Part shown: positions 9,276 through 50,327 of the stretch, piece by piece
Layout: each line of letters starts with the position of its first letter
Numbering within the stretch: position 1 is the stretch's first letter
Source of the DNA: Haloplanus natans DSM 17983
GTDB lineage: Archaea > Halobacteriota > Halobacteria > Halobacteriales > Haloferacaceae
Direction: 5' to 3'
Assembly (NCBI RefSeq): GCF_000427685.1
Contig: NZ_KE386573.1
Coordinates: 2,216,938-2,280,937 of the forward strand
Length of the DNA: 64,000 bases
Made by a program: the position numbers and the translations under genes
The notes under the pieces: model-generated
The model's input: only the letters and a program-made list of their open reading frames with translations
Database searches by the model: none
Told to the model about the DNA's origin: nothing

Positions 9276-9812
9276 GTGACTCCGGAGCCCAACGAGTACG
9301 GCGCGGTCGTGTACGACCTCGACGGGACGCTCGTCCGCCTCGCGGTCGACTGGGACGCCGCCGCCAGCGACGCGGTGGCTGCCTTCGCCGACGCGGGCGT
9401 CGACGCCGCCGACGCCGACCTCTGGTCGCTGTTCGAGACGGCGCCGGAGTACGGCCTCGGGGCGGAGTTGGAGGCGATTCTCGCCGATCACGAGCGCCGT
9501 GGGGCCGAGGACGCGACACGCCTCCCGCACGCCGACCGCGTTCCGGAGTGGCCCGTCCCCGTCGGCGTCTGCTCGCTCAACGCCGAGTCGGCCTGTCGGC
9601 TGGCCCTCGATCGGCACGACCTGTTGGGGCACGTCGACGCCGTGGTCGGCCGGGACTCTGTGGCGACACACAAACCCGACCCCGAACCCCTGCTGACGAC
9701 CATCGACCGCCTCGGCGCCGACCCGTCGTCGTCGTTGTTCGTCGGCGACTCCGAGCGCGACGCCGTGACCGCGGAGCGAGCGGGCGTCGCCTTCGAGTGG
9801 GTGGACGGCTGA
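9276..9812 (+). CDS. HAD-superfamily hydrolase (phosphatase)
   Basis: A 178-residue HAD hydrolase: motif I DLDGTLV with the nucleophilic Asp near residue 14, the motif III lysine in THKPDPEP, and motif IV GDSERD. The cap is small. This is most like phosphoglycolate phosphatase-type HADs, though the substrate cannot be assigned. The GTG start at 9276 has ATTATC about 28 bases upstream, consistent with a leaderless message. The stop codon TGA forms the first edge of a long inverted repeat. Confidence 0.9.
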   Translation: MTPEPNEYGAVVYDLDGTLVRLAVDWDAAASDAVAAFADAGVDAADADLWSLFETAPEYGLGAELEAILADHERRGAEDATRLPHADRVPEWPVPVGVCSLNAESACRLALDRHDLLGHVDAVVGRDSVATHKPDPEPLLTTIDRLGADPSSSLFVGDSERDAVTAERAGVAFEWVDG

Positions 9813-9892
9813 TAGTGTTTCTCGTAACTGTGTGCCGGTAGCTCGCCGACCCGTTCCGGCGGGCCACCGGTACTGACTGACGATAACACTAT
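9812..9892. repeat. 81-bp inverted repeat at a stop codon, copy A
   Basis: Imperfect inverted repeat starting on the last base of the HAD gene TGA. The outer eight bases ATAGTGTT are perfectly mirrored at 9885-9892, the arms both carry CCGGT, and a GC stem closes the centre. It is the most diverged member of a family also found at 12561, 35951 and 42034. It may act as a bidirectional terminator, a palindromic mobile element, or both. Confidence 0.85.
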
Positions 9893-9986
9893 GAGCGAGT
9901 CCGCGATCCGTCGTGACGGTGTGTCGTAGCCCGTCCGAGGGCGCCCCGGTTACGCGTGGCCGTCGCTCGCGCCGGCGACCCACGCA

Positions 9987-10165
9987 CTTTTTATCACCCG
10001 GGGTTGTAGGCCCATGTACCAACGACCCGCGGGCAAATGCGGAAAGCGGCCGCATGCGGGGACCAGCGACCGACGTGCTGCAAGACGCCGGGGCCGGTGG
10101 CCCCCAGACGGGATTTGCGTGAGCACCCCTGCCACAGTTGTGGCGTTTCAATGCTCGGATAAACC
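9987..10165 (+). promoter_or_regulatory. Promoter and structured 5' leader of the RNase J operon, possible ncRNA
   Basis: A TATA element CTTTTTATC at 9987-9995 predicts a transcription start near 10018, about 148 bases before the RNase J ATG, unusual in a mostly leaderless genome. The leader holds three hairpins: 10037-10055 (6-bp stem), 10090-10104 (GGGGCC-GGT-GGCCCC) and 10131-10144 (GCCAC/GTGGC). The third is 21 bases before the ATG. An open frame from ATG 10014 gives a basic, arginine-rich product unlike a haloarchaeal protein. I recognised no known RNA family. Confidence 0.55.
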
Positions 10166-11518
10166 ATGGAAATCGAAATCGCAACAATCGGCGGCTACGA
10201 GGAAGTCGGACGGCAGATGACTGCTGTCCGGGCCGGGAGCGACGTCGTCATCTTCGATATGGGTCTGAACCTGTCGCAGGTCCTGATCCACGACAACGTC
10301 GAAACCGAACAGATGCACAGTCTCGACCTGATCGACATGGGTGCCATCCCCGACGACCGGGTGATGAGCGACCTCGAAGGGGACGTACAGGCGATCGTCC
10401 CGACCCACGGTCACCTCGACCACATCGGCGCCATCTCGAAACTCGCCCACCGCTACGACGCGCCCGTCGTCGCGACGCCCTTTACGATCGAACTGGTGAA
10501 ACAGCAGGTCCAGAGCGAGGACAAGTTCAACGTCGGCAACGACCTGGTGAAGATGGACGCGGGATCGACGATGTCCATCGGCGACTCGGGCAACGTCGAA
10601 CTCGAGTTCGTCAACGTCACCCACTCGATCATCGACGCGATCAACCCCGTTCTCCACACGCCCGAAGGCGCCATCGTCTACGGGCTGGACAAGCGGATGG
10701 ACCACTCGCCGGTCATCGGCGACCCCATCGACATGGACCGGTTCCGCGAGATCGGTCGTGAGGGCGCCGGCGTCCTCTGTTACATCGAGGACTGTACGAA
10801 CGCGGGTCGGAAGGGCCGCACCCCCAGCGAGTCCGTCGCGCGCAAACACCTGCGCGATACGATGTACGCCATCGAGGACTACGACGGCGGCATCGTGGCC
10901 ACTACGTTCAGTTCCCACATCGCCCGCGTCACTAGCCTCGTCGAGTTCGCGGAGGACATCGGGCGCCAGCCCGTCCTGCTCGGCCGATCGATGGAGAAGT
11001 ACTCGGGCACCGCCGAGCGCCTGAACTTCGTCGACTTCCCGGATGACCTCGGGATGTACGGCCACCGCAAATCCGTCGACCGGACGTTCAAGCGGATCAT
11101 GAAAGAGGGCAAGGAGAACTACCTCCCCATCGTCACGGGCCACCAGGGCGAACCGCGCGCGATGCTGACGCGGATGGGTCGCGGCGAGACGCCGTACGAA
11201 CTGGAGAACGGCGACAAGGTGCTGTTCTCGGCGCGCGTGATTCCGGAACCGACGAACGAGGGCCAGCGCTACCAGTCCGAGCGCCTCCTCGGGATGCAGG
11301 GCGCCCGCATCTACGACGACATTCACGTCTCCGGCCACCTGCGCAACGAAGGTCACTACGAGATGCTGGACGCGCTTCAGCCCCAGCACGTCATCCCGGC
11401 CCACCAGGACCTCGAAGGGTTCGCACCCTACGTCGACCTGGCCGAGGGGCAGGGCTACGCCCTGGGCCGTGACCTCCACGTCACGCGCAACGGCAACATG
11501 ATTCAGCTGGTGGAATGA
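10166..11518 (+). CDS. rnj: RNase J family 5'-3' exoribonuclease
   Basis: A 450-residue metallo-beta-lactamase/beta-CASP ribonuclease. The zinc-binding motif HGHLDHIGA lies near residue 77, followed by the His in THSI, the beta-CASP region, and the late GHxSGH-like [10 protein letters not shown] with HVIPAHQD near the C-terminus. Archaeal RNase J degrades RNA from the 5' end in the cytoplasm. Length is normal for the archaeal short form. It overlaps idsA by four bases (ATGA), so the two are co-translated. A structured leader precedes it, which would suit autoregulation of an RNase gene. Confidence 0.95.
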
Positions 11519-12561
11519 CGACCGATTCGACGGAAGAGCAGGTGCTCGCGGCGGTCCGCGAGCGCCGCGAGCGGGTCAACGCGGCCATCGACGAGGACCT
11601 CCCCCTCGTGGCGCCGGAACGGCTCTGGGAGGCGTCGCGCTACCTGCTGAAAGCGGGTGGCAAGCGCCTCCGACCGACCGTCTCCCTGTTGGCCGCCGAG
11701 GCCATCGCGGACGTACCGCCGCTCTCCGTCGACTATCGCCAGTTCCCCGCCCTCGACGGCGACGAGGTGGACGTGATGGCCGGGGCGTTGAGTCTCGAAG
11801 TCATCCAGTCGTTTACCCTCATCCACGACGACATCATGGACGACGACGCGCTCCGTCGCGGGGTGCCCGCCGTCCACAAAGCCTACGACGTGGACACCGC
11901 CATCCTCGCGGGCGATACGCTCTACTCCACCGCCTTCGAAATCATGGCGGAGACGGGCGCCGCGCCCGAAAACGGGTTAGAGGCGATGCGGATGCTCGCG
12001 GAGACCTGCACCCGCATCTGTGAGGGACAGGCACTCGACGTGGAGTTCGAGCGTCGAACCGACGTGCTCCCCGACGAGTATCTGGAGATGGTCGAGTCGA
12101 AAACCGCCGTCCTCTACGGCGACGCGGCGGCGACACCCGCCGTCCTCCTCGACGCCGACGACGAGGTGGTCGACGCGCTCTACGCCTACGGCATCAACTC
12201 GGGGTCGGCGTTCCAGATCCAAGACGACGTGCTCGACCTGACGGTTCCGTCGGAAAAGCTCGGCAAACAGCGGGGCTCGGACCTCGTCGAGAACAAGGAG
12301 ACGCTCATCACGCTCCACGCCCGCCAGCAGGGCGTCGACGTGGACGCCTTGGTCGACGCCGAGGACGCAGACGCCCTGACCGACGACGAAGTCGAGGACG
12401 CGGTGGCGACGCTGAACGAGGCGGGCAGCATCGAGTACGCCCGCGGGAAGGCCCGGTCGCTCGTCGACGAGAGCAAGCGAAACCTCGAAGTCCTCCCCGA
12501 CAACGAGGCGCGGTCGCTGCTGGAGGCTATCGCGGAGTACCTCATCTCGCGGGGCTACTGA
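11515..12561 (+). CDS. idsA: Geranylgeranyl/farnesyl diphosphate synthase
   Basis: A 348-residue trans-prenyltransferase that extends isoprenoid diphosphates for archaeol lipids. First aspartate-rich motif IHDDIMDDD near residue 105 and second QDDVLD near residue 240; the GGKRLRP substrate motif is at about 50. Its start overlaps the RNase J stop, a linkage common in haloarchaea. The gene ends on a TGA that abuts inverted repeat copy B, which probably ends the operon transcript. Confidence 0.95.
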
Positions 12562-12908: not shown

Positions 12909-13733
12909 TTGAAATCGAAGGCGAAGAAGTCCTCGACGGGACGGCAAAACCGTCGGGGCGAAGCAACGCCGGAGAAACCTGAGAAACCAGAGCGAGTCGT
13001 TGGTATCGACGTGGGGATTCTCAAGTACGCCCACGATACTGACGGGTACGCCATTGAGAGTCCCGACTTCAGCGAGGAACGTGAGCGACTCGAACGCGCA
13101 CAACACGACCTCTCGCGGAAGGAACACGGCTCTGCGAATTGGGAAAAACAACGTCGGGTTGTTGCCGAATGCCACGCCGACCTGAAGCGCAAGCGGCGAG
13201 ACTTCTTGCACAAACTCTCGAACTACTACGCGACCGAGTACGACTTGGTGGCCGTTGAGGATTTGGACGCGAAGGGACTGGTCGAACTCCCGGGCAACTC
13301 TCGTAATCGAGCGGGAGCGGCGTGGGGGACGTTCCTGTGGATGCTCGAATACAAGTGCGAGCGCGAAGGAACGCACTTCGTCGCGGTTGACTCGAAAGAT
13401 ACGACGAAGGAGTGTGCGTCCTGCGGTGTCAAGACCGAAAAACCGCTGTGGGTTCGTGAACACTCGTGTCCTTCGTGTGGGTTCGAGGCGGATAGGGACG
13501 CGAATGCGGCGTGGAACATTCGTTCTCGCGGTCTCGAAAAAGTAGGAGTGGTTCACTCCGAATCAACGTCCCCAGAAATCAAAGATTTCTGGTGTGCGGA
13601 CGAATCGCGTCGCGATTCGTCAACGCCTGTGGAGACTGCGCTCCCTGTGGATACGTCCGTATCTGCAAAGCGCGTCGTGGAAGCAGGAAGCCACACCCTC
13701 AAGGAGCGAACCGCGTCAGCGGTGAGCGAGTAG
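12909..13733 (+). pseudogene. tnpB: Truncated IS200/IS605-family TnpB (IS1341 type)
   Basis: The frame keeps the C-terminal two thirds of an RNA-guided nuclease TnpB: RuvC-I VVGIDVG, RuvC-II AVEDLD, the zinc finger CASC...CPSC, and RuvC-III DRDANAAWNI. About 150 N-terminal residues (HTH and the guide-RNA-binding part) are absent and there is no convincing start codon, the first candidates being weak TTG codons. After the last RuvC motif an extra stretch (PEIKDFWCADESRRDSS) is encoded by two perfect hairpins at 13572-13592 and 13599-13621. No TnpA is nearby. The catalytic residues are all present, but without the N-terminal half the product should be inactive. Confidence 0.88.
13572..13621. 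repeat. Two short hairpins inserted in the tnpB remnant
   Basis: 13572-13592 is a 9-bp stem with loop AAA (CCAGAAATC / GATTTCTGG). 13599-13621 is a 10-bp stem with loop GTC (GACGAATCGC / GCGATTCGTC). They keep the reading frame open while adding residues not needed by the fold. Confidence 0.75.
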
Positions 13734-50006: not shown

Positions 50007-50327
50007 TCAGCCGTCTCCGTCCCCGTCGGCCGGCCGAATCTCGACGACGCCCCGGCCGTGAACGGTTACCACGGATTCGAGATAGTGGAACTCGAGGACG
50101 CGGTCGTCGCTCCCGTCGTTGCCTTTTACCAGGCGGTCGATGGCCGCCGGGTCAATCGTCTCGACGAGCGGTTCGAGCGCCGTGGGGGCGGTGTCGTGGA
50201 CGCTCGCCATCGCTTCGACGACGGCCATGCTCGGCGCGATGGCGTCACTGTCGAACTCCGCCAGATGCGTCTTCGACTCGGAATCGTAACTCATCGAAAC
50301 CGGCTCGTCGGTCGGTAACTCACTCAC
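50007..50327 (-). CDS. HalOD1 output domain protein
   Basis: A 106-residue single-domain protein. The motifs SMAVVEAMASVHDTAPTALEP and ETIDPAAIDRLV are typical of HalOD1, the haloarchaeal output domain in signalling proteins. No receiver or PAS part is attached, so it may act as a free-standing output unit. C-terminus is VRPADGDGDG-like acidic tail. Confidence 0.85.
   Translation of the reverse strand: MSELPTDEPVSMSYDSESKTHLAEFDSDAIAPSMAVVEAMASVHDTAPTALEPLVETIDPAAIDRLVKGNDGSDDRVLEFHYLESVVTVHGRGVVEIRPADGDGDG

Follow-up and report, generated by a model that had tools for sequence, protein, structure and literature searches.

A conserved structured leader upstream of the RNase J gene in haloarchaea and its predicted role in cis regulation

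Introduction

The autogenous ribosomal-protein leaders of bacteria are each associated with a single gene, before which they adopt folds that are specific to the lineage. Among ribonucleases, the RNase E enzymes of Escherichia coli and Synechocystis regulate their own mRNA via the rne 5′ untranslated region (UTR) (PMC10989929). For Haloferax volcanii, a dRNA-Seq study reports that 72% of transcripts are leaderless and records 97 5′ UTRs of 150 to 250 nt (PMC4983044). The RNase J gene, rnj, is essential in Haloferax, which has been reported to be without an exosome (PMC10470531).

Here, we describe a leader preceding rnj in a window of 64,000 nt of the Haloplanus natans DSM 17983 genome (contig NZ_KE386573.1, positions 2,216,938 to 2,280,937), to which all coordinates refer unless otherwise indicated. 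With the ribosomal-protein leaders it shares the association with one gene and a fold that differs by lineage, the difference being that the regulator would here be a nuclease. Like the rne 5′ UTR, for which feedback in cis is established (PMC10989929), it is an untranslated stretch leading into the gene of a major RNase; unlike it, the leader belongs to a beta-CASP RNase J and to another domain of life, differs in sequence and fold, has no Rfam match, and would be subject to a feedback that is predicted. The long 5′ UTRs of H. volcanii likewise belong to leadered haloarchaeal transcripts, yet no conserved structure is described for them in the available portion of that source, the text of which does not name HVO_2724 (rnj) (PMC4983044). 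No discussion of its leader was encountered in the accessible literature naming HVO_2724, and no description of the element was found in the literature searched on RNase J, rnj, and haloarchaeal leaders, which comprised the main texts of openly available papers.

A cmscan of positions 9700 to 10400 against Rfam returned, up to an E value of 5, chance-level matches that were all far below the gathering score, and known RNA families such as rne5, snoRNA-like guides, and riboswitches were rejected on this basis. The same applied to an H/ACA or C/D guide RNA, for which sR-h45 was considered as a parallel; literature text on sR-h45 was not found. Because no Rfam family was matched and no description was found in the literature searched, the leader is rated as new: leaders of RNase genes are known, but its sequence, its fold, and its occurrence in Archaea would be novel, and its function is predicted.

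The rnj-idsA locus and its promoter

The features of the locus are compiled in Table 1. The start of idsA overlaps the end of rnj by 4 bases, rnj being the first gene of an rnj-idsA operon, and idsA was located directly 3′ of rnj in each of the 80 named haloarchaeal rnj loci that formed the comparison set, so that co-regulation of idsA is inseparable from that of rnj. Gene order upstream of rnj differed between genomes; at two loci (L008 and L021), a divergently oriented gene for an Lsm-like protein was recognized by eye in this position. Shortly 3′ of idsA in the window, an IS200/IS605 TnpB-like frame (positions 12909 to 13733) was likewise recognized by eye.

Table 1. Features of the rnj leader and operon in the window
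Feature	Position	Strand	Basis or remark
BRE/TATA-type promoter CGACCCACGCACTTTTTATC	9976-9995	+	Sequence; T-run spacing in homologs
Predicted transcription start zone	10014-10019	+	From TATA spacing
P1	10026-10030 with 10056-10060	+	Pairs nearly invariant across the alignment
Conserved GGGYAA	10031-10036	+	Enclosed by P1
P2 hairpin	10037-10042 with 10050-10055	+	Six of eight pairs changed on both sides
P3 (whole)	10067-10096	+	Pair counts including diverged members
P3a	10067-10071 with 10092-10096	+	A10069 and C10094 unpaired in the window
P3 stem, CG(N)GC/GCCG	10074-10078 with 10087-10090	+	GA/G internal loop between P3a and stem
P3 loop UGCAAGAC	10079-10086	+	Consensus UGYAAGAY
P3c hairpin, GGGGCC-GGU-GGCCCC	10090-10104	+	Helix of at least 5 bp in 50 of 81 distinct leaders
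UUUGCGUG element	10114-10121	+	Within the 10113-10156 segment with P4
P4 lower stem	10121-10125 with 10152-10156	+	Pair counts
P4 upper stem, GCCAC/GUGGC	10131-10135 with 10140-10144	+	Pair counts
Second UUUC element	10146-10149	+	Part of the P4 segment
rnj, RNase J (450 aa)	10166-11518	+	Pfam PF22505 RNase_J_b_CASP, 2.9e-19, plus metallo-beta-lactamase
idsA-type polyprenyl (geranylgeranyl diphosphate) synthase	11515-12561	+	PF00348, 2.2e-65

In the following, leaders sharing the motif series of the window are termed class I, and those of Haloarculaceae and relatives are termed class II. The initial annotation had proposed a TATA box far upstream of rnj and a transcription start at 10018. The former is borne out by TTTTTATC at positions 9988 to 9995, preceded by CGACCCACG. 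Of 90 class I homologs, 89 likewise retain the BRE/TATA T-run 36 to 39 nt ahead of CCCGCGGG, at the first helix. Since this spacing is fixed, transcription is predicted to start within the zone given in Table 1, in agreement with the proposed position. The resulting leader comprises 148 nt (10018 to 10165) up to the rnj start, and class I leaders as a group enter their first helix approximately 7 to 12 nt past the predicted start.

That this region holds no convincing protein, as had also been noted, agrees with the comparison of homologs. A 41-aa frame (10037 to 10162) is frameshifted or stopped in relatives of the genus, though the DNA is conserved. Among 151 homologs, the best plus-strand frame is open in 54 and the best minus-strand frame in 89, so that none is shared by all. 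Leader lengths modulo 3 are spread 61/42/48 among the homologs. A small protein or upstream open reading frame in the leader was rejected owing to the broken frame and the lack of a shared one.

Architecture and covariation of the leader

Folded alone, the window leader has a free energy no better than that of shuffled sequences (z = +0.38), and hairpins of the window are thus no evidence on energy alone. Three hairpins apparent in the window (10037 to 10055, 10090 to 10104, and 10131 to 10144) all recur in the conserved set; their stability, as noted in the initial annotation, would not by itself have counted as evidence. The leader structure rests on comparison and not on free energy.

The P1/P2 region of the window (10026 to 10060) matched the covariance model with 67.2 bits. 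Across 37 sequences, 94.8% of the P1, P2, and P3 cells were paired and 52 had changed on both sides, a value reached in none of 500 shuffles. With the most diverged members included, P3 retained pairing in 91.5% of cells, with five pairs changed on both sides, and its covariation score was 0.277 versus 0.130 in shuffles; the register initially drawn for its stem was broken in six sequences and was discarded in favor of the better one adopted here. P4 was paired in 90.6% of cells in families other than Natrialbaceae (nine cells with both partners changed, against 0 of 500 shuffles) and in 97.8% in its Natrialbaceae form (three pairs changed on both sides), a representative substitution being that of GAGAGUC/GGCUUUC by GAGCGCC/GGCGCUC. 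As the shuffle control preserves columns and not relatedness, these shuffle counts are not probabilities; a slid-partner control likewise remained well below the observed pair counts in each case. By eye, no compensatory changes were seen in support of UUUC pairing with either the P3 loop or the GAAAUC start codons, and both pairings were rejected.

P3c occupies the 3′ arm of P3a, such that the two helices are mutually exclusive, and follows the consensus GGGGYC/GRCCCC. Imposing the consensus fold with P3c on the window yielded −55.0 compared with −59.9 for the minimum free energy structure, a cost of 4.9 kcal/mol. Among 81 distinct leaders, 26 could form both helices (P3a with at least five of six pairs, P3c with at least five), 28 P3a alone, and 24 P3c alone, the search being loose enough to count some offset or GU-rich helices as well. 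Switching between P3a and P3c is offered as a hypothesis, because both forms are possible in just these 26 leaders and the search criterion is loose.

Distribution of the class I leader

The motif series of the window, namely CCCGCGGGYAA-P2-GCGGG, CCGACGNGCUGYAAGACGCCGGGGCC, the UUUC elements, and the last hairpin, is common to 63 of the 80 rnj loci, including diverged forms such as those of Halorussus; the weakest members (L005 and L026) scored only 15 to 22 bits, yet were correctly placed. A different leader precedes rnj at the remaining 17 loci, so that every one of the 80 carries class I or class II. Conservation extends over 90 to 150 nt and stops just before the start codon; the helices adjacent to the P3 loop and to the UUUC elements vary more than these do. 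The P3 loop was also considered as a copied rRNA motif, which was rejected: its 20-base motif has a single exact match in the genome, which is this leader, and matches with two to three mismatches are scattered.

A covariance model of the first 96 leader positions (R1) had matches in 156 of 292 haloarchaeal genomes, each of which contained a single copy, with E values down to 3e-13. Together with the compensatory changes in P2, P3a, and P4, this bears out the conservation in other haloarchaea that the earlier proposal of a structured leader had named as a check. All 12 genomes of the window's genus were matched, and none of the matches in a sample of the phylum lay outside the window's order. 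The 90 further copies inspected were all directly upstream of rnj, and the AUG was mostly situated 57 to 102 nt past the end of the R1 match (346 nt at the farthest; 60 copies measured).

Approximately one-quarter of the 292 genomes matched neither R1 nor the class II model (R2, see below) at the threshold used, and those inspected carried diverged class I leaders. The exception was L265, from the window's family, with a third-looking rnj leader in which a start-proximal GCUGUUCC and an AUG-proximal GGAACAGC are complementary. In Halobacterium-like genomes (L261, L262, and L258 to L260), the P3 hairpin of class I and UUUCAGUG/P4 follow a different 5′ domain; as both elements are kept despite this difference, P3 and P4 may represent the oldest module.

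These observations bear on the suggestion, also present in the initial annotation, of a separate small RNA that would be produced from the same promoter or cut from the leader and act in trans. The strong conservation over 90 to 150 nt ending just before the start codon is what such an RNA might display. Nevertheless, a scan for bacterial-type consensus terminators found none between the element and rnj, the last conserved helix of the window ends 9 nt before the AUG, no Rfam family was matched, and no class I element unlinked to rnj was seen in the R1 search of 292 genomes and the 90 copies inspected. A single copy per genome, always before rnj, disfavors a free trans-acting RNA as well as a metabolite regulon, and we consider the separate small RNA highly improbable, although release of a processed small RNA from the leader is conceivable.

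Binding of another RNA-binding protein or an antisense RNA, which would then control rnj translation or decay, could make use of the conserved unpaired elements near the AUG, and the Lsm-like gene beside rnj in some genomes might be viewed in this light. Against this, no candidate partner emerged and upstream gene order varies, which renders such control quite unlikely.

A second leader class

Class II leaders, found in Haloarculaceae and relatives, comprise 140 to 250 nt before rnj and start near (G)UAACCGAG. Their terminal hairpin (CGGYCGYCC/GGGCGRCCG) displays compensatory changes at two pairs. In all 47 class II leaders, the promoter T-run lies 31 to 33 nt before CCGAG and a CUCGG is present 14 to 16 nt before the AUG; pairing of these two sites is plausible, the complementary sequences being invariant and hence without covariation support. 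Whole class II leaders were much more stable than shuffled sequences, with a mean z of −4.6 (−7.2 for L064) compared with −1.9 for class I.

R2 matched 66 of 292 genomes, of which approximately 57 to 58 are judged real. Of the loci inspected, all 30 with strong matches and 18 of the 20 with weaker ones preceded rnj, the two misses having E values of approximately 1e-3; the remaining matches were weak (approximately 1e-3 to 1e-2) and came largely from the window's family. One such match in the window itself (positions 50022 to 50069, minus strand; 21 bits, E value of 0.0075) lies away from rnj and is probably due to chance. Locus L233 (genome G087), from a family (f7) that otherwise carries class I, has a class II leader before rnj, which suggests replacement or transfer of a leader class.

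The position of these structures near the 5′ end may point to protection or enhanced translation without regulation, for example by shielding the rnj mRNA from RNase J. A helix approximately 7 to 12 nt past the predicted class I start and the complementarity of the predicted class II 5′ end to a site close to the AUG would both suit such a role. Neither the two UUUC elements nor a hairpin loop conserved over 8 nt would be needed for simple protection, however, and we deem this reading very unlikely.

A metabolite, ion, or temperature switch of rnj-idsA, with P3a and P3c as its states and RNase J as merely the product of the downstream gene, would be in keeping with the exclusivity of these helices and the number of leaders able to form both, with conservation of the P3 loop and UUUC elements beyond that of neighboring helices, and with the invariable linkage of idsA. 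Metabolite switches usually control several genes, however, while this element occurs once per genome, never before another gene, and two distinct leader families are found at the same gene. Such a switch is regarded as unlikely.

Proposed function

That 10018 to 10165 constitutes a conserved structured leader is virtually certain. Because it precedes only one gene, takes two forms, and occupies a constant position after the promoter and ahead of the start codon, it is very probably cis-regulatory. RNase J is the most economical candidate for the sensed factor, as rnj and idsA are the sole constant partners of the element, and a different structured leader before the same gene in Haloarculaceae and relatives is the pattern expected if a gene product, and not a shared ligand, is sensed; the chance that RNase J is this factor is about even. 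The essentiality of rnj in Haloferax renders tight control of RNase J dosage plausible (PMC10470531).

In the scheme that we infer, transcription from 10018 would yield an rnj-idsA mRNA whose leader sets RNase J output in cis. RNase J or its complex would recognize the 5′-terminal P1/P2, P3 with its UGYAAGAY loop, and P4 near the start codon, and would trim, cleave, or occupy the leader; free RNase J would then lower its own synthesis, and RNase J engaged on other RNA would permit more. This reading, in which RNase J is the most likely recognizing factor, has in our estimate a slightly better than even chance of being correct. With respect to the initial annotation, the structure before the RNase gene is strongly supported by its conservation, by covarying pairs, and by its occurrence at rnj alone, and autoregulation is the best-fitting inference.

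Certain observations run counter to feedback by RNase J through a cis-acting leader. The free energy of the window leader is not unusual, and the H. volcanii study, in which most transcripts are leaderless, judges structured leaders untypical of haloarchaea (PMC4983044). As idsA invariably follows rnj, the leader may also sense on behalf of idsA. Furthermore, the genome of the window encodes a second rnj paralog (L002, positions 1505 to 2845 of that locus; contig C7, approximately position 2063267), whose 447-aa product shares 84% identity with the window RNase J and which is followed by a hisI-like frame, with neither a class I leader nor idsA seen at this locus; the leaderless paralog does not settle what the leader senses. 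A more elaborate reading, in which a class I P3a/P3c switch read by RNase J and two unrelated leader families together amount to the first archaeal RNase autoregulatory leader, is possible but doubtful.

A class-wide leader before an essential RNase gene contrasts with the mostly leaderless mRNAs reported for haloarchaea and with the view of structured leaders as untypical of the group (PMC4983044). Class I and class II define two new RNA families, and their presence suggests that archaea control RNA decay via RNA structure at an RNase gene, in the manner of RNase E control in bacteria. Both leader families occur in genetically tractable genera, which makes this idea directly testable.
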